From assembly GCF_014196805.1 (NCBI RefSeq), contig NZ_JACIEI010000003.1, positions 1 to 64,000 of the forward strand: 64,000 nucleotides of DNA, given 5' to 3'. A program made the position numbers and the translations under genes. The stretch comes from Sulfitobacter undariae. GTDB taxonomy: Bacteria; Pseudomonadota; Alphaproteobacteria; Rhodobacterales; Rhodobacteraceae. Positions 399 to 8,950 of the stretch are shown here, in pieces (positions within the stretch are counted from its first letter, which is position 1; each line of letters starts with the position of its first letter). Below the pieces are notes generated by a model that saw nothing but the letters and a program-made list of their open reading frames with translations, was not told where the DNA came from and did no database searches.

Positions 399-1097
399 TT
401 ATTTCATGGACAGCACCAGCCCGTCCAATTCACGCAGCAGCTTGATTTCCATGGCCGCTGCATAGTCCTCAAACCCGTTTGCGGTTTCTACAAACGCATT
501 CGGTCCCAAGATTACATCGGCGCGAAAATATGCGGCAAGCCCACCACCTAAATCTTGGGTGTTGTCAGCGTCGATGACCAGTGCGTTGATCGTAACGCCT
601 TGGGCTTCGATCTGGGCCTTTAGGTTGCGGGGGCGGGGGCCAAGGTTGCTTTTGCCATCGCCAGAAATGTCTAATGTCCGCTGCCAGCAATGGCTGCGTT
701 CTGACAAATGCTGTGCCCCTCTCAACATCGCAACGCCCAATGCCGTTCCCGGCGTTGATCCCTCCCGACGGGTCACGCCTAGCAACTGCGCAATCACGGC
801 GTCCAATGTCGAGGGGGATGTGATCCGTGTCCAGGGGACCAGTGTCATCAGGTCTTGTGGACCGCTCCACTCATAGATCAACAGCTCAACGGGGGCGTCG
901 ATTTGTTCCAGCAGTGCAGCACGGACAGCAGTACTGCCCAAGGCCTGCGCCAGCCCGTCCATTTGCAGGCGGTATTCACGGGCATCCACAGACCCCGAAA
1001 CATCCAGCCCCAAAGCCAGCGCCTGACGACAGGTTTCTGCCCTCGCCGAATGCCCCAGACCCATCACAAGACATGCCGCAAGCAATGCTGTTTTCAT
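399..1097 (-). CDS. DUF1194 (VWA-like) secreted protein
   Basis: The 232-residue product starts with a signal peptide (about residues 1-20, ending SARA). It then has a von Willebrand A-type metal-site motif, DVSGS at residues 32-36, which marks the DUF1194 family of periplasmic or exported VWA-like proteins found in Alphaproteobacteria. A second conserved segment, TLDISGDGKSN, lies about residue 145. The family has no established function; a VWA fold implies metal-dependent protein binding. The gene stands alone on the minus strand, downstream of glyoxalase I and convergent with the MarR remnant. Family assignment is firm and role is unknown. Confidence 0.85.
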   Translation of the reverse strand: MKTALLAACLVMGLGHSARAETCRQALALGLDVSGSVDAREYRLQMDGLAQALGSTAVRAALLEQIDAPVELLIYEWSGPQDLMTLVPWTRITSPSTLDAVIAQLLGVTRREGSTPGTALGVAMLRGAQHLSERSHCWQRTLDISGDGKSNLGPRPRNLKAQIEAQGVTINALVIDADNTQDLGGGLAAYFRADVILGPNAFVETANGFEDYAAAMEIKLLRELDGLVLSMK

Positions 1098-1164: not shown

Positions 1165-1599
1165 TTACCAGCTGCCGGTGTTGCCCAAAGATGTCCAAGG
1201 TTCTGCTGGCGCCAGTGCATCCCCTTCTTGCAACAGCTCAACCGAGATGTTGTCAGGAGATCGTATGAAAGCCATACGCCCGTCATGAGGAGGGCGGTTG
1301 ATGGTCACGCCATTGTCCATCAGGAATTGGCAGGTTTCATAGATGTTTTCAACGGAATAGGCCAAGTGGCCAAAGTGACGGCTGTCTGAGGGCAGCGCAT
1401 CATCGCCGTCCCAGTTGTAGGTCAGCTCAAGGTCCGCGTGGCCGTCATCCATACCGGGAGGGCAGAGATACAGCAGAGTAAACCGCCCCTCTTTGGACTC
1501 ATAACGCTTGCGTTCCTCAAGTCCCAGCAGCTTGTAAAAGGCGAGGGACACATCGAGGTCTTTGACGCGGACCATCGTGTGAAGGAATTTGATCGGCAT
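1165..1599 (-). CDS. gloA: Lactoylglutathione lyase (glyoxalase I)
   Basis: This 144-residue VOC-fold enzyme isomerises the methylglyoxal-glutathione hemithioacetal to S-lactoylglutathione in the cytoplasm. The sequence opens FLHTMVRVKDLDVSLAFY, with the first metal-ligand His at residue 7. The other expected ligands lie in DLELTYNW (Glu), GHLAYSV (His) and SVELLQEG (Glu), as in Ni-dependent bacterial GloA. Length and motif order are normal for the family. An AGGAG ribosome-binding site sits a few bases before the ATG at 1599. The next genes on the same strand are unrelated, so it is probably its own transcript. Confidence 0.93.
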   Translation of the reverse strand: MPIKFLHTMVRVKDLDVSLAFYKLLGLEERKRYESKEGRFTLLYLCPPGMDDGHADLELTYNWDGDDALPSDSRHFGHLAYSVENIYETCQFLMDNGVTINRPPHDGRMAFIRSPDNISVELLQEGDALAPAEPWTSLGNTGSW

Positions 1600-1676: not shown

Positions 1677-3113
1677 TTAAAACGACGAGGCGATGCCGAT
1701 GCTTAGGCCCATAGTGTTCACATCATAAAGGCCGATATTGCTGTCCGTCTTCGATGCGCTCAGGCTGACTTTGGGGTTAAAGCCCATATAGTCAATATTT
1801 TTGAACGTGGCGGTCAAATCTGCCGAAATTTGAAAATCTTGGCGGCCCGATTTGTCGTGTGGCGACACATCATAGTTGCGAAAGCTGGTGCTCAGTCCAA
1901 ATTGCAGCGATGTCCCCATGACCTCACGGCCCAGCAAATAACCCGAGCGCAGGCTGACTTCCTCATACTCATAACTCGCGGTGTCAGATGCCAGAGCACT
2001 GGCTGAAATCCCCAAATAGAGGCCATTTTGATCGGCGAGCTTTTTGCTCAACCCGGCGCTAAGGGTCAATTTTTCCTGATCCGACCCCCGTTGGGCATTG
2101 CGGATATCCGCGTTCAGCCCGAAGCTAAGCTTGGACTGCGGGTTTAGGTAGTAGGACTGCCCGACGCTGGCACGCAAAAAGCTATTGTAGCGGGCACCGC
2201 CATAAAAACTCTGTCCGATGTCAGCCGTCGCGCTGAATTCACCACGTTGGTCCTCGCGCATTTTCTTAAAGCCATAGCCCAGTTGAACGGTGCCGAAGGC
2301 AAAATCGCTGCCCTCCAATCCAAGTGGTGACTGCCCTCTGCCGATCCGGTCGGCATCTTCCGCAGCCAGATCTTTCTTGGATGAGGAAGACAGTTGATAC
2401 GTGCGGTAAGAAAGGCCCATCCGCAGATCATGCGCTGTGCGTTCGGTTTGGAAAAAGCGGTAACGGGATTGAACGTTGAACCCTGTTTCCAAGCCCGACA
2501 GCGCTTTGCTTGCGGCCCCCAAAGTTAGCTCGTTACCGCCGAAAATCGGGTCCAGCACATAATAAAGCGAAGATGAATCGCGTGAAGAACCGTTGTTGAT
2601 GTTGGAACTGGGCTGCAATGTGAAAGAGAGGTTTGTCTGCCACGGGTTGCGCTGCTGGACATAGCGGAAATCTTGTGCCGCACGGGCCTCATGGGCTTTA
2701 CTTGGCGCAACTTGCCCTGCACGACGCAACCAGAGCTGCGCACGTGTGCGCTTGCCGTCCGATGACAGGGCTTGCGCCATAAGCAATGCGGCGGCGTATT
2801 TTTGATCATCTGTTTTTGATGCTTGCCATGCTGCACGGGCCGCTTTTTGTGCTGCTGCGTATTCAGCCTTTGCGCGCATGGCAAAGGCGCGGATCATCAG
2901 CGCAGTCACATCCTCGGGGTCGCGTTTCAGCAATGCATCCGTCAGGGACAGAGCAACGTCAATCTGGCCGTTGCGCATGTTTAAATCAGCGGCCAGCCTC
3001 ATTTGCTCAGCCGAGAGTCGTACGGGATCAGTGTCGGCGATTGCACAAGGCGCGGTCAGAACAGTGACCGCGCCAAAAACAACTGCAACAAAATGTCGCT
3101 TGAGAAACGTCAT
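1677..3113 (-). CDS. Slam-like outer-membrane protein (TPR + 14-strand-type barrel, DUF560)
   Basis: The 478-residue protein has a signal peptide (about 1-26), a helical TPR-like periplasmic region (about 30-155, with DVALSLTDALLKRDPEDVTAL and LLMAQALSSDGKRTRAQLWL segments), and then a long beta-rich region. That region has alternating aromatic strands and ends in IGIASSF, with the terminal Phe typical of outer-membrane barrels. This architecture matches Slam (surface lipoprotein assembly modulator), which moves specific lipoproteins to the cell surface in Neisseria and relatives. The start lies 4 bases after the stop of a TbpB-like lipoprotein gene, so the two are probably translated from one mRNA. 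Length fits the family. Slam activity in this organism is inferred from architecture and neighbour. Confidence 0.75.
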   Translation of the reverse strand: MTFLKRHFVAVVFGAVTVLTAPCAIADTDPVRLSAEQMRLAADLNMRNGQIDVALSLTDALLKRDPEDVTALMIRAFAMRAKAEYAAAQKAARAAWQASKTDDQKYAAALLMAQALSSDGKRTRAQLWLRRAGQVAPSKAHEARAAQDFRYVQQRNPWQTNLSFTLQPSSNINNGSSRDSSSLYYVLDPIFGGNELTLGAASKALSGLETGFNVQSRYRFFQTERTAHDLRMGLSYRTYQLSSSSKKDLAAEDADRIGRGQSPLGLEGSDFAFGTVQLGYGFKKMREDQRGEFSATADIGQSFYGGARYNSFLRASVGQSYYLNPQSKLSFGLNADIRNAQRGSDQEKLTLSAGLSKKLADQNGLYLGISASALASDTASYEYEEVSLRSGYLLGREVMGTSLQFGLSTSFRNYDVSPHDKSGRQDFQISADLTATFKNIDYMGFNPKVSLSASKTDSNIGLYDVNTMGLSIGIASSF

Positions 3114-3117
3114 TGGT

Positions 3118-4185
3118 TTACTCGTCTTTGCCCCGATAGACGATAAATCCGCCAGTATCGCGTGAATTACCGGCTTCTAGGACAAACACACCGACGATTT
3201 CATCCGCATTATCGCCCGCGACGATGGCATAGTAATTGCCGGTTTCATACTCGACCTCATTTCCATCGGCAGTGCGATAACTGCTCACAACCTCGCCTAC
3301 CAAGTCGCCGCTATCCTGAAGAACACCAGCCTGGACAACAAGTTGCGCGTCAGGAATTTGGGTGAGGCCAGTTCCGATTGTAGCCGCGACAGTGCCGGTG
3401 ATGTCGTTACCGTCGAGGTCAAAAACGCGGCGGTTTGAAATGCGACCATTCACACCAGCACCTTTGTCGAAATCATCGCTGTCGATGTTGATCTCAACGT
3501 CAGCGGTTGTGAATTGCAAGTCGCCGCCATCATTGGAATCACGCAAACCTGCGGACTTGCCCGTGTATTTTGCTTGTAGGGTTTCGGGCAGTGTTACACC
3601 GCCGTCGCGTTGGTAAATGAACCCGCCAAACCCGTATTTAACGTAAGCGCCTGTGCGTACGATTGCAAATTGGGTCGTCGGCACATTGCGGCCATCGGTG
3701 GTCCTGTTTTTGCTCACGCCATAAATAGCACGGTATTTAAACTGGTCGATCGCATCGCCAGTGTTTGGATCAAAGGCGAGCTCTTCCGCTTCATAAACAT
3801 TGAAACGGCCACCATTTAGGCTGCTCACGGATTTGCCACGCACGTAGGGGCTGTCTCCATCAAAGGCCAGGTTGTTTACAGTGAACGTGTCATCGTCGCT
3901 ATTGTAAGAGACGCTGTTTGCGTATCCGTCGCCGCTTTCTTCGTTTAGCTTTTCGCTTCGATAGATCGTGTCGCCAGATGTCGGAGACTCTGTTCCCGGT
4001 GGGGTGCCATCAGTGATAGCGATGCCATCGCCGTCTGTTTCGCCGCCCGTATCTGTGCCACCGTCTGTGCCACCATCCGTGCCGCTACCGCTGCCTGTAT
4101 CTGTTGCGTTTTCATCAAATGGATTGCCACCGCTGCACGCGGCAAGGCCTGCGATAAGCGCAAGACTGATAACTGTATTTTTCAC
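3118..4185 (-). CDS. TbpB-like surface lipoprotein, candidate Slam substrate
   Basis: The start chosen is GTG at 4185: it begins a lipoprotein signal (VKNTVISLALIAGLAAC) with lipobox LAAC, and GAGG lies just upstream. An open frame continues upstream to 4452, but that extension has no signal-peptide character. After the lipid-acceptor Cys there is a Gly/Thr/Asp/Ser-rich linker, typical of surface-tethered lipoproteins. Beta-rich sequence follows, ending in EIVGVFVLEAGN and GGFIVYRG, resembling the C-terminal barrel of transferrin-binding protein B and related Slam-dependent lipoproteins. Its ligand cannot be read from the sequence; no TonB receptor gene is adjacent. The mature protein is about 335 residues, smaller than TbpB, so it may hold a single lobe. 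Confidence 0.7.
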   Translation of the reverse strand: MKNTVISLALIAGLAACSGGNPFDENATDTGSGSGTDGGTDGGTDTGGETDGDGIAITDGTPPGTESPTSGDTIYRSEKLNEESGDGYANSVSYNSDDDTFTVNNLAFDGDSPYVRGKSVSSLNGGRFNVYEAEELAFDPNTGDAIDQFKYRAIYGVSKNRTTDGRNVPTTQFAIVRTGAYVKYGFGGFIYQRDGGVTLPETLQAKYTGKSAGLRDSNDGGDLQFTTADVEINIDSDDFDKGAGVNGRISNRRVFDLDGNDITGTVAATIGTGLTQIPDAQLVVQAGVLQDSGDLVGEVVSSYRTADGNEVEYETGNYYAIVAGDNADEIVGVFVLEAGNSRDTGGFIVYRGKDE

Positions 4186-4390
4186 TACTCTGCCCTCGGA
4201 AACTTTATGTTTGGTTAACGGGGACAATCGCTGCACGCTTGGCGCTTTGTCAACGATGGGTGTTAACAGTGACTGATAAACCCCTGTACCATGGCGAAAA
4301 AACAATACCATATATCGCGTTCCCGCCCGACGCTCCGCAAGATATAGTGAACAGCGAATCCATTCCAATCCGTCACAAGGACCCGCCCCC

Positions 4391-5311
4391 ATGCCGATCA
4401 GCCCAGAACAACAAGCCGAAATTGACGCGCAGCGCGCACAATCTGCACCCACTTTGCGTGCCGTCTCCGAGGGGATGGAAGCGCATCTCTATACTGCCCA
4501 CGAAGTCCTTGATCACGGGTTTATCCGCGTCATCGATTACATGGGCGACGATGCCGCCATTTGTCAGGCGGCACGGGTAAGCTATGGAAAAGGCACCAAA
4601 TCTGTACAAAATGACGAAGGGCTGATCCGCTATTTGATGCGCCATTGGCACTCCACACCTTTTGAAATGTGCGAGATTAAATTGCACGTGAAACTGCCTG
4701 TTTTTGTGGCCCGCCAGTGGATCAGACACCGGACCGCAAACGTGAATGAATACTCTGCCCGCTATTCGATTCTGGACCGTGAATTCTATATTCCTGCGCC
4801 CGAACACGTGAACGCGCAGTCCGTAGTTAACAATCAAGGCCGTGGTGGCGTGTTGGAAGGGGCGGAAGCCGCTCGTGTGCTGGAGATTCTTAAATCCGAT
4901 TCGAATCGCGCTTATGACAATTACGAGGCAATGATCGGCACCGAAGGCCCCGACGGCGAAGCCCAAGACGGTCTGGCCCGCGAATTGGCCCGCATGAACC
5001 TGCCCACCAACATCTACACGCAATGGTATTGGAAAGTTGATCTGCACAACCTCTTCCACTTCCTTCGCCTGCGCGCCGACCCCCACGCCCAATATGAAAT
5101 CCGCGTTTACGCCGATGCCATCTGCAAAGTCGTCGCCGATTGGGTGCCGGCCGCTTACGGCGCATTCGAAGACTACCGCTTGGGCGGCGCCAGCCTCTCA
5201 GGCCGCGCCTTGGACTGCATCCGCCGCATGTTGGCGGGCGAAGAAATGACGCAAGAGAACAGCGGCATGAGCAAGGGAGAATGGCGTGAGTTTGAGGGTG
5301 TGATTAGGTAA
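4391..5311 (+). CDS. thyX: FAD-dependent thymidylate synthase
   Basis: This 306-residue flavoenzyme makes dTMP from dUMP using methylenetetrahydrofolate and reduced FAD. The ThyX signature [14 protein letters not shown] is at residues 112-125, and a second conserved stretch, [19 protein letters not shown], is near residue 220. Length is at the long end but usual for alphaproteobacterial ThyX. The gene is divergent from the lipoprotein/Slam pair, with about 205 bases between starts. No thyA or dihydrofolate reductase gene is nearby. Having ThyX suggests that dihydrofolate is not produced at this step. Confidence 0.97.
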
Positions 5312-6038: not shown

Positions 6039-6365
6039 ATGATTACCCTCTACGGCCTCAAAAATTGTGACACCTGCCGCAAGGCACTAAAAGCGTTGCC
6101 GGATGCCGTATTGGTCGATGTCCGTGCCGAGGGCGTGCCTGAGGATGTGATGGCGCAAGCCTTTGAGACGTTCGGCGCTGCCGCCTTGCTGAACACACGC
6201 TCTACCACATGGCGCGGGTTGGAGGAGAGCGAGCGCGCCGCACCGCCGCTTGATTTGATCGCCAAGCACCCCGCCTTGATGAAGCGCCCGCTGATCCAAG
6301 CGGACGATACTTTGTTTCTCGGCTGGACGGCCGATGTGCAAACCGCCCTAGCGGCGCGGGGTTAA
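6039..6365 (+). CDS. ArsC/Spx-family thioredoxin-fold protein
   Basis: The start is set at ATG 6039, which has AAGGGA eight bases upstream and begins the family sequence MITLYGLKNCDTC; the frame extends further upstream but with no such support. The 108-residue product has the CxxC motif (NCDTCRKAL) and the later segments LLNTRSTTWR and ALMKRPLI, as in the arsenate-reductase-like YffB/Spx group. These proteins may act as glutathione- or thioredoxin-dependent reductases, and the substrate is unknown for this branch. There are no arsenic-resistance genes nearby, so arsenate reduction is doubtful. Its 3' end overlaps the convergent doxX gene by 18 bases. Confidence 0.85.
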   Translation: MITLYGLKNCDTCRKALKALPDAVLVDVRAEGVPEDVMAQAFETFGAAALLNTRSTTWRGLEESERAAPPLDLIAKHPALMKRPLIQADDTLFLGWTADVQTALAARG

Positions 6366-6896
6366 AGCGCGGTCAAGCGACAGTGGCCCAGCCCCTTTGA
6401 ACACCAAGACCAACAGCAAAAACACCCAAAGTGCGCGTTGATCCATGATGATCCCGTCAGGAAAGCGGTCAAACCACGCGCCTAGCACTTTGGCATCCGC
6501 CCAGCCGCCATGGCCGTAAAGATCGGTCAGCGATTGCACAGCGATAAATCCGATCATCCCCAGCGCTGCCAAGCGGGTGAACAACCCCAGCACAACCAGC
6601 GCAGGCAGGATGAACTCCGCCCAAGTCCCAAACAGCACAATCAGCTTTTGCAACATGTTGAATTGATCGGTGTCATAGCCAAGCGCCTCCATCATTCGTG
6701 GGAACATCTGCACGTAAGCCCCTGTAGAAGGAGAGAAAATGCCGCCAAACCCGTCGCCTAATTTGGTCAGGCCTGATACCCAGAAGTACATCAAAAAGAT
6801 CGCCGCGAACAGCAGACGCGCCAGTGTCGGTAGCAGCCAGTCGGCGCGCTCCAGCGTGTCGGTGAGGCGGGTGTAGAGCGAGAAAATGGGGGTCAT
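6348..6896 (-). CDS. DoxX-family membrane protein of the bufferin operon
   Basis: The 182-residue protein has four or so hydrophobic segments: around residues 22-45, 85-112, 113-130 and 155-172. Its LPTLARLLFAAIFLMYFWVSGLTKL and TWAEFILPALVVLGLFTRLAAL stretches are DoxX-type. In characterised bufferin loci a DoxX protein (BufD/HvfD) is the last gene and may supply electrons or redox balance at the inner membrane during maturation or export. Here it follows the bufC-like gene with an ATGA overlap, which indicates translational coupling. The role is inferred from the operon; the family itself is clear. Confidence 0.88.
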   Translation of the reverse strand: MTPIFSLYTRLTDTLERADWLLPTLARLLFAAIFLMYFWVSGLTKLGDGFGGIFSPSTGAYVQMFPRMMEALGYDTDQFNMLQKLIVLFGTWAEFILPALVVLGLFTRLAALGMIGFIAVQSLTDLYGHGGWADAKVLGAWFDRFPDGIIMDQRALWVFLLLVLVFKGAGPLSLDRALTPRR

Positions 6897-7645
6897 TTGG
6901 GGTCCTTTTGGGGGGCGCAGAAGGTCTGTGCCTGTAGGGTCAGTGTCAGTGTGGTGGCAAAATTAAACTCGGGCGCGGCGGTTGTTGCTGTCTCGATTGC
7001 GGTCCCGACATCTTGGGTCATCAACGCGTCTATCCAAGTGGCTGCGCCCGTTGGCAGCAGGTGCACGGCAGGGTCAAAGGCGGGGCGGGTGATCATCACC
7101 GCTTGACCCACCGCACGCGGTTGCGGCGCATCGGGCTGGGTCGCGCGACACCACAGATCATGCAGCGGCCAGCGCGAGCGTAAAACACGTGTCGAAGGCG
7201 CGCGCGTCAGCCGTATTTGGGCTAGCACTTCTGGCGTGGCTTGCAGCGTGTTCGGATCAAAGGGCAGGGCATCAGCCGCGTGATAAGAGGCGCGGATTTC
7301 CAGATCCAGCCGTGCCACATCAGCCAGATATCCAAGATGGGCCAAGGGCTCAAACCCTGCCAGAAATTCAGGAAATTCAACGCCGTAATGCATCATCAGC
7401 GGTGAGGCAGGCGGGTGCAACCGCACGTACATCGGTACAAGGCTGTCGAAGTTATTTGGGCCCAGCAGGGCGCGTACAGTCGGGAAGGCAAGCTTCATTG
7501 CCTCAATCAGCGAGACGACAACGTTGTTTCGGTAGACCGCATAGCGGCGACCAGCGGGCGCACCTGCGCCGTCCAACAGGCCACTGGGTACAGGCGCATC
7601 AGCATCCAGCAATGCGGCGCGGAACTCGGTCTGGGTGACGTGCAT
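6893..7645 (-). CDS. MNIO partner protein (DUF2063, BufC/HvfC type)
   Basis: The 250-residue product starts VTQTEFRAALLD and contains GRRYAVYRNNVVVSLIEAMKLAFPTVRALLG at about 33-62, the hallmark of the DUF2063 N-terminal domain. Families with this domain were once called putative DNA-binding. In bufferin-type RiPP clusters the protein is the partner of the DUF692 oxidase and helps present the precursor. Its ATG overlaps the stop of the bufB-like gene by one base (TGATG), so the two are probably made in fixed ratio. C-terminal residues 150-250 are divergent. No helix-turn-helix motif is evident by eye, favouring the partner-protein role. Confidence 0.85.
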   Translation of the reverse strand: MHVTQTEFRAALLDADAPVPSGLLDGAGAPAGRRYAVYRNNVVVSLIEAMKLAFPTVRALLGPNNFDSLVPMYVRLHPPASPLMMHYGVEFPEFLAGFEPLAHLGYLADVARLDLEIRASYHAADALPFDPNTLQATPEVLAQIRLTRAPSTRVLRSRWPLHDLWCRATQPDAPQPRAVGQAVMITRPAFDPAVHLLPTGAATWIDALMTQDVGTAIETATTAAPEFNFATTLTLTLQAQTFCAPQKDPK

Positions 7646-8505
7646 CAGCTTGCCTGCAGCAAGGCGAGGGCGCTGGCAGCACGCTCTGCTTCTACGCGTA
7701 GGACGGGCCAGTCTGGCACGTCAGTGTCCCATTCCACCAAAACGGGTTTGGGGCCGCTTCGGGCCAACGTATAGTCCAGCAGCGCCCAAACTGGGTCAAC
7801 CACGGGGGCACCGTGGCTGTCGATCAACAAGGGCGCGCCATGATCATCGCTGTCTTCGTCATGTCCGCCAACATGCACTTCGTGCACGGCCTCCAGCGGG
7901 TAAGCGTCAATATAGGCATGGGGGGCTAGGCCAAGATTTGTGCATGAAACAAAGACATTGTTCACATCTAGCAACAAACCACAGCCTGTCTTGTGGACAA
8001 GTGCCGCCAAAAAGTCGGTCTCGGAGAGGGTGCTTTCGGCAAAGGCGAGGTAGCTGGAAGGATTTTCCAGCAGCATTTGGCGGCCCAACGTATCTTGCAC
8101 CTGCGCGATATGATCAGCCACGCGTGTTAGGGTGGTGGCTGTATAGGGCAGGGGCAGCAGATCATTCAGGAACTCGGCACCATGGGTAGACCACGCAAGA
8201 TGCTCAGAGAAGCTGGCGGGGTTGGTGCGGTCCAACAGGGTGCGCAGGCGTGTGAGGTGGGCACGGTCCAGCGGTGTCTCGCCGCCGATTGACAGGCCAA
8301 CGCCGTGTACGGAAAGGGCGAAATCTTCGCTCAGCGCGCGCAGTTGCGCGTGTGGGCGGCCGCCATCGCCCATGTAATTCTCGGCATGAACCTCAATCCA
8401 TTCAACAGGGCCGGGGGCTTCACGCATCTGATTGAAATGTTGGGGTTTATATCCGACGCCGACGCTGTTTGGCAGGCGGCGGGGAGGGGAGGATTGGTCA
8501 AACAT
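7645..8505 (-). CDS. DUF692 multinuclear non-heme iron oxidase (MNIO, BufB/HvfB type)
   Basis: The start is placed at ATG 8505 because GGAG lies nine bases upstream; a TTG at 8520 would add five residues without support. The 286-residue product carries the MNIO metal-site segments in order: [55 protein letters not shown] and [12 protein letters not shown] enzymes use a cluster of two or three irons to modify cysteines of ribosomal peptides, for example to thiooxazoles in bufferins or oxazolone-thioamides in methanobactin. The predicted substrate is the Cys-containing precursor encoded 71 bases upstream. The enzyme class is certain from motifs; the product chemistry is inferred. Confidence 0.92.
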
Positions 8506-8576
8506 TGCAATACACTCCAATCATAAGAGGGGGGGGCAACAGGCCCGTGCAGCTGGCACAGGCCTGTCGGAATAGT

Positions 8577-8879
8577 TTATGCTGGTAGGTCGCGGTCAAG
8601 CGCGTCAAGCGAACCTTGGCGTGCTGTGCCGTCTGCTTGCGCAGGTAGTTCGATGGTTGCGCAAGTGCCCGCGTCTACCAATGTCCAGGCGTTGCCTTGG
8701 TAATCGGTGACGGATGTACCCGCGCATGTTGTGCCCGGACCAGCGGCGCAGTCATTGGCACCTGCCAGAGAAACGCCATAGCACTTTTCTTTGGAGGCGG
8801 CGTCTGCGGTTGTTGCAACGCTGCCAAATGATGCGGCAACGGCGCCTGCAATCGCGAGGGTTTTCAGTGTAGTGGACAT
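8577..8879 (-). CDS. Bufferin-type RiPP precursor (DUF2282, BufA1/HvfA-like)
   Basis: The start is set at ATG 8879, preceded by GGGAGAG; a longer open frame has no signal peptide or ribosome-binding site. The 100-residue precursor has a Sec signal peptide (about 1-28, ending TADAAS). A core follows with exactly four cysteines at 33, 44, 52 and 73 ([30 protein letters not shown]). This layout is that of class 1 bufferins, copper-binding periplasmic RiPPs whose cysteines are modified by the MNIO enzyme. The bufB-, bufC- and doxX-like genes follow in the same direction. The last 20 residues are acidic and lack Cys. Metal specificity cannot be read from sequence. Confidence 0.85.
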
Positions 8880-8950
8880 CGGGTCTCTCCCTTTTTGAAC
8901 CAAATCTGTCGTGACAACTGTAGTAAAGCAGGCCTGCGGAGGCAAATCTA

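Follow-up and report, generated by a model that had tools for sequence, protein, structure and literature searches.

A lipoprotein gene of Sulfitobacter undariae and the gene of an outer-membrane protein beside it raise the question of whether the two products are the exporter and the cargo of one type 11 secretion (Slam) system and, if so, what kind of target such a cargo may bind. A first-pass annotation, made from the letters of the window (the whole 64,000-nucleotide stretch of DNA analysed), had described them as a Slam-like translocon next to a TbpB-like surface lipoprotein. Both open reading frames were found where it had placed them, on the minus strand and separated by a gap of 4 bases (3114–3117), so that the observation of the pair is confirmed, and its identification is supported by the results given below. 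The annotation had also considered the pair unusual for Rhodobacterales, a view that no longer holds: the same locus was described in Roseobacter-group bacteria in 2025. According to the legend of Fig. 8 and the related passages of that paper, a marine "cluster 3" T11SS locus, present in 11 strains of Rhodobacteraceae/Roseobacteraceae, includes thyX, the T11SS protein, a glyoxalase and one or more DUF1194 proteins, with an eight-strand-barrel lipoprotein in 10 of the 11 (Grossman et al., 2025; PMC12282271). The locus type is thus already published for these families.

Organisation of the locus

The features of the window are as follows:

399..1097, minus strand: DUF1194 gene, neighbour (E 4e-62; signal-peptide-like N-terminus by eye; gene order conserved, considered to be outside the system)
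1165..1599, minus strand: glyoxalase-family gene, downstream neighbour (Glyoxalase, E 5e-16; gene order conserved, considered to be outside the system)
1677..3113, minus strand: Slam/T11SS outer-membrane protein gene, 478 aa (Pfam, structure model)
1683..2642, minus strand: 14 predicted beta strands of the Slam barrel, residues 158–477 (model)
2649..3011, minus strand: predicted helical repeats (TPR-like) at the N-terminus of the Slam protein, residues 35–155 (model; weak TPR matches)
3118..4185, minus strand: surface-lipoprotein cargo gene, 355 aa, GTG start (lipobox, structure model)
3121..3585, minus strand: predicted C-terminal beta-barrel domain of the lipoprotein, about residues 201–355, fHbp/NHBA/TbpB type (model)
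3586..3960, minus strand: predicted N-terminal beta "handle/effector" domain of the lipoprotein, about residues 76–200 (model; boundaries approximate)
3961..4134, minus strand: Gly/Asp/Thr-rich linker of the lipoprotein, residues 18–75 (low model confidence)
4135..4185, minus strand: signal peptide and lipobox (VKNTVISLALIAGLAAC, Cys17; Cys invariant in the 29-sequence alignment)
4248..4253, minus strand: TTGACA (-35-like), 5' of the lipoprotein gene (in 24 of 24 aligned upstream regions, by eye)
4391..5311, plus strand: thyX (Thy1, E 5e-56), divergent neighbour (gene order conserved, considered to be outside the system)

In the 24 aligned upstream regions of the lipoprotein gene, we also noticed by eye a conserved palindrome-like element further upstream of TTGACA. 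Near thyX, at about 4290–4360 of the window, ACTATATCTG-like and GATATGCGGTATTGT-like elements are conserved in 23 relatives and may be NrdR boxes. Elsewhere in the window (6348–8945, minus strand), DoxX, DUF2063, MbnB/TglH/ChrH-family and DUF2282 genes stand in a row that resembles a bufferin operon.

The outer-membrane protein

The 478-residue protein matches SlipAM (PF04575) in Pfam with 45.3 bits, against a cut-off of 22 (E 1.1e-11), and with 43.3 bits in a genome-wide search it is the sole PF04575 match of its own genome. Matches to TPR at its N-terminus are weak (TPR_14, E 0.014). The AlphaFold2 model, built from 30 aligned sequences (mean pLDDT 87.2), contains seven helices at residues 35–155, followed by 14 long strands at residues 158–477. 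The nearest solved folds are those of the TPR-barrel exporters BcsC and PelBC, then those of 14-strand porins such as OmpG (2iwv_A, TMt 0.73, rmsd 4.9) and CymA. At the level of sequence, the best match in the PDB is an "outer membrane protein" (9hiv_F, E 0.024), and the Slam profile retrieved weak matches alone, mostly helical-repeat proteins. The TPR-plus-barrel architecture of the annotation is therefore borne out by SlipAM above the cut-off and by a model with helical repeats and 14 strands; the lack of such a barrel, which the annotation had named as grounds for abandoning the identification, is not what the model predicts.

The lipoprotein

The LAAC lipobox, with its cysteine at residue 17 (invariant across 29 aligned cargo sequences), and the Gly/Asp/Thr linker that follows are both present in the 355-residue ORF, as had been annotated. 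Against Pfam and NCBIfam, the window cargo gave no match to any family with a useful E-value, and the PDB, searched by sequence, returned chance matches alone; among the 29 aligned cargos, weak Pfam matches were found to FHBP_C in 10 (best E 0.0025) and to TbpB_B_D in 3 (best E 4.1e-4). Searching its own genome with TbpB_B_D gave no match, but the control genomes were likewise silent, so that this search is uninformative.

The structure model, built from the same 29 aligned sequences and of intermediate confidence (pLDDT 69.9, pTM 0.68; residues 1–74 hardly modelled), retrieved 72 PDB chains in Foldseek at E ≤ 0.001. The 50 chains listed are TbpB, LbpB, fHbp and hemophilins, together with one titled merely "surface lipoprotein", with loose superpositions (TMq 0.26–0.39, rmsd 5.8–19.2). 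With VIA-align, the best match is fHbp (8bk2_A, Z 15.1, rmsd 2.6 Å over 168 residues), the haemophore 6om5 aligns with Z 13.8 (rmsd 4.6 Å, 207 residues), and the barrel domain matches 4ayn_A (Z 11.6) and 5o1r_B (Z 11.2). Foldseek and VIA-align thus point to a C-terminal eight-strand barrel of the TbpB/fHbp type, in one loop of which the model places a short helix (residues 263–270). The TbpB-like barrel end proposed in the annotation finds no Pfam match in the window cargo and stands by the structure model, and the outcome that would have spoken against the proposal, a lipoprotein devoid of a TbpB-type fold, was not seen, since a TbpB/fHbp/hemophilin-type fold is predicted. Strand positions are more conserved than the other positions of the folded part (0.75 vs 0.61, in the cargos of version 1 described below, 21 of the 29 rows).

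The mature window cargo has a pI of 4.06 and contains no histidine, no methionine and one cysteine, that of the lipobox. Two extra cysteines are present in 33 of 105 cargos (L157, L172, L178, L182 and L188, among others), both within the last 25 residues in 30 of these 33, where they perhaps form a disulfide.

Distribution of the pair and presence of the cargo

The lipoprotein was identified in 30 of 36 genomes of the genus, the own genome included, and a Slam ORF adjoins it in all 30, which argues that the pairing is not due to chance. Most of the closest named records are from Sulfitobacter. The pair is widespread in the family: at E ≤ 0.001, the window-Slam profile finds a match in 151 of 295 genomes (151 of 294 genera), though some of these matches are weak. 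Several other genomes of the genus encode elsewhere a second PF04575 Slam, often better-scoring. Directly upstream of the Slam genes of the second class of the genus, lipobox ORFs of about 215–250 aa were observed in L033, L035, L036 and L037.

For the family we analysed 100 loci from 98 of the 151 matching genomes, hand-picked from the listed matches at E of about 1e-68 or better; the other listed Slam matches, many of them partial or on short contigs, fall outside this set. A cargo ORF lies directly upstream of Slam in 91 of these loci (87 by profile, 76 by the lipobox rule, 91 by either), the lipobox rule having missed some cargos found by profile, such as a 60-residue fragment at L099. Two more loci likely belong here: in L139 the cargo profile matches at a distance of 378 bases from a Slam ORF that an in-frame stop has shortened, and in L169 an ORF truncated at the end of the contig looks, by eye, like the C-terminus of a cargo. 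As for the loci where no cargo was called, thyX stands directly beside Slam without a lipoprotein in L154 and L158, the Slam copies of L130, L147, L150 and L175 lie away from the thyX locus and without a lipoprotein, and L173 is the seventh such locus. The lipoprotein is still kept in L125, whose 20 kb include none of thyX, glyoxalase and DUF1194. Among named records, the cargo was found by profile in 79 of 80 loci (the best 80 of 210) and by eye in the 80th (L221), beside a split Slam ORF.

Two side observations concern Slam copies of this set. In L130 and L147 the Slam relative adjoins an opposite-strand ORF that is CAP/SCP-domain-like by eye, with a clear lipobox in L147. In one genome (G221), a single contig carries two near-identical copies of Slam: that of L163 is at the thyX locus and has the lipoprotein, whereas that of L175 lies elsewhere and lacks it.

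This near-constant presence differs from the published picture, in which TbpBBD was detected by domain search in 8 of 145 loci, the reasons considered, in the part of that work dealing with cargos, being that these are encoded elsewhere, fall below the similarity threshold or are absent; there, Pseudooceanicola marinus LMG 23705 is the single strain named as having no cargo (Grossman et al., 2025; PMC12282271). In that very strain (L243) we identified a 348-residue lipoprotein ORF (347 bits) beside Slam, in a locus that also contains thyX, glyoxalase and two DUF1194 ORFs. Because the cargo ORF is nearly always present, also in LMG 23705, we favour the second of these reasons, and the published scarcity of cargos probably reflects detection thresholds.

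Neighbouring genes

The same study raises the neighbouring genes as possible functional links and DUF1194 as a possible T11SS cargo, its counts being 102 of 145 loci with DUF1194, 89 with glyoxalase and 77 with thyX (Grossman et al., 2025; PMC12282271, as far as its account of the neighbourhood goes). A pair working together with one-carbon metabolism, aldehyde detoxification or DUF1194, or exporting DUF1194, would accord with these numbers and also with the co-occurrence observed here, where glyoxalase is present in 91, thyX in 75 and DUF1194 in 72 of the 100 Slam loci (anywhere in stretches of up to 20 kb). However, the same neighbours were found where this Slam is missing: in 20 thyX loci without it, from 20 genera, glyoxalase is kept in 19 and DUF1194 in 16, and the lipoprotein is present in 2 and Slam in none. 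These 20 loci are the ones with the most window-like thyX, hence a biased sample, scored within 4 kb of thyX, whereas the Slam loci were scored over the whole stretch, and L196 was counted as glyoxalase-positive even though its thyX ORF overlaps that gene. In Fisher tests, which ignore relatedness, Slam-less and Slam loci differ in the lipoprotein (6.9e-13) and not in glyoxalase (p 1.0) or DUF1194 (p 0.59). Moreover, 17 of the 20 genomes with Slam-less loci have no PF04575 match at E ≤ 0.001. The lipoprotein is kept without a local Slam in L201, in whose genome a PF04575 search found no Slam, and in L203, the genome of which encodes a different Slam at another place. A gene resembling, by eye, that of a membrane protein stands between thyX and the next gene in L205 and L209.

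Since glyoxalase and DUF1194 stay at Slam-less loci from which the lipoprotein is mostly gone, thyX, glyoxalase and DUF1194 probably represent inherited gene order, bystanders and not partners of the pair, and the Slam-less counts make a functional link to any of the three very improbable. The cargo of marine T11SS, DUF1194 as a cargo and the one-carbon genes nearby are points that the published study leaves open in the portion concerned with this locus (Grossman et al., 2025; PMC12282271). Our results suggest that nearly all of the loci examined have a cargo and that the neighbours are probably bystanders.

Proposed function of the pair

Taking together the lipobox, the adjacency of the genes, the folds given by the models, the conservation and the joint loss, we propose, with a probability of roughly 0.8, that the two genes encode a type 11 secretion (Slam) system together with the cargo that it serves, a surface-displayed lipoprotein that likely binds an external target other than His-ligated haem. 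Lipidation, translocation, surface display and recognition through the barrel are taken from what holds for the family. By this analogy, the lipoprotein would be exported by Sec, lipidated at Cys17 and carried to the outer membrane, where the adjacent 14-strand TPR-barrel protein, recognizing the C-terminal fHbp/TbpB-type barrel, would move it to the outside, and the flexible linker would leave the handle domain exposed. An ordinary lipoprotein facing the periplasm, next to a barrel protein with another role, seems improbable to us: no experiment is known for this cluster, the seven verified T11SS systems all belonging to cluster 1 according to the relevant passage of Grossman et al. (2025; PMC12282271), but both predicted folds match those of working systems, and the lipoprotein and Slam genes are mostly kept and lost together.

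As to the target, the fold match to the haemophore 6om5 and to HphA structures (Z 12.3–13.8) would be compatible with uptake of haem or iron in the manner of hemophilin or TbpB. Such a cargo could feed a TonB receptor elsewhere, and TonB-receptor searches of the own genome gave five barrel and five plug matches, that is, five receptors on other contigs. None lies on the contig of the window (445,862 bases), in agreement with the annotation, which had remarked that no TonB receptor is next door. Because the window cargo contains no histidine, and 33 of 105 cargos have none and 39 have one, His-ligated haem is unlikely as the general ligand. The absence of methionine from the mature window cargo, of a TonB receptor from its contig and of any metal-regulator site recognized by eye in the 24 aligned upstream regions also speaks against a haem or iron carrier, which we accordingly disfavour as an unlikely reading. 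The annotation had expected a ligand unlike that of the Slam cargos of host-adapted bacteria, and a cargo devoid of histidine, on a contig that encodes no TonB receptor, fits this expectation. Tyrosine-based binding or a protein ligand is possible. For the surface-displayed cargo that we propose, the most likely role seems to us that of a strain-variable surface binding protein (adhesin, receptor or decoy).

Two versions of the pair at one site

Within the genus, two versions of the pair occupy one and the same site, in 21 and 9 loci, respectively. Between versions, the median identity is 33% for Slam, 34% for the lipoprotein and 89% for ThyX, the version-2 ThyX data being from the four loci that have a thyX ORF, which is cut in one of the four. 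The versions fall in different supported groups of the Slam tree, each with other genera, and an AU test rejects a single clade for the same-genus Slams (p-AU 1e-103), under a simple model (LG+G4), with 20 of the 30 same-genus and 34 of the 100 other rows, and with groups chosen after the first tree. The ThyX protein tree is poorly resolved (15 of 95 inner branches starred; the genus, with 24 rows, needs 3 changes), and in the thyX DNA tree, which takes in three version-2 loci only, a single clade with support 100/99 unites L011 and L013, of version 1, with L023 and L026, of version 2.

L013 and L023 are 97.7% identical in ThyX, 31% in Slam and 34% in the lipoprotein. From the upstream region to the early linker, signal peptide and lipobox included, their DNA remains similar, after which the similarity breaks off abruptly; at the other end, identity climbs from 36–54% inside Slam to 66% and then to 80–86%, in windows that start some 60 bases past the Slam stop. 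This collapse in the linker and recovery past the Slam stop is what would be expected if cargo and exporter were exchanged together, and the two appear, from the sequences compared, to have been lost or swapped as one unit between thyX and the glyoxalase gene, which are unrelated housekeeping genes, recombination in the flanks being the simplest reading of two versions at one site. Over 332 pairs whose ThyX identity is 88% or more, which are not independent, the identities of Slam and lipoprotein correlate with r 0.91 (318 pairs) and those of ThyX and Slam with r 0.36; linkage alone could keep cargo and Slam together and give this co-variation. An old duplication followed by differential loss would account for the relatives that both versions have in other genera, but it is the less plausible history, given that two lipoprotein matches never occur in one same-genus genome (one in each of 30) and that one version gives way to the other sharply, within the linker and again soon past the Slam stop, between relatives 97.7–98% identical in ThyX.

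Building on exchange of the pair, we tentatively suggest that in the Roseobacter group the locus might be a swappable surface module. Its flanks, homologous from thyX to the signal peptide on the one hand and in the glyoxalase gene on the other, would allow a single recombination event to replace the whole mature surface protein and its matching exporter, so that marine bacteria could change their surface identity at one stroke, with phages, grazers or partner organisms as the probable source of selection; we hold this to be somewhat less than an even bet. Among the matches listed in literature searches, none on Slam and allelic variation or recombination concerned this locus, by title, and those on roseophage receptors held nothing of use; the cluster 3 passages of Grossman et al. 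(2025; PMC12282271) do not describe exchange of the cargo/Slam pair. If the exchange took place, the pair would constitute a natural test of how exporter and cargo are matched and would illustrate surface variation in bacteria other than host-adapted pathogens.

Comparison with known systems

The pair resembles Slam1 and Slam2 of Neisseria, which likewise are TPR-plus-barrel translocons serving lipoproteins of the same fold class, namely TbpB, LbpB, HpuA and fHbp. The window cargo is 9–19% identical to known cargo structures in the listed structural alignments and, unlike in the Neisseria systems, no TonB receptor is encoded on the contig. TbpB binds transferrin, has two lobes and works together with TbpA; the 355-residue window cargo has, in the model, one handle and one barrel. 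Hemophilin/HphA proteins of Haemophilus, Acinetobacter, Stenotrophomonas and Vibrio have a similar handle and barrel (cargo residues about 70–352, Z 12.3–13.8). Hemophilin-type haemophores use a histidine as haem ligand, whereas the window cargo is, judging by its lipobox, a lipoprotein and has no histidine that could serve as one.

The closest likeness in organisation is to the cluster 3 locus, in which, as in the window, thyX, an SPase II lipoprotein with an eight-strand barrel, a T11SS protein, glyoxalase and DUF1194 are found together, and a Sulfitobacter is named in the cluster; for five cluster 3 cargos a barrel loop with a helix is described, as predicted for the window cargo (Grossman et al., 2025; PMC12282271, in the passages on this cluster). 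Unlike in that account, with few cargos and with neighbours as possible functional links, nearly all of the loci studied here have a cargo, and the neighbours probably reflect inherited order.
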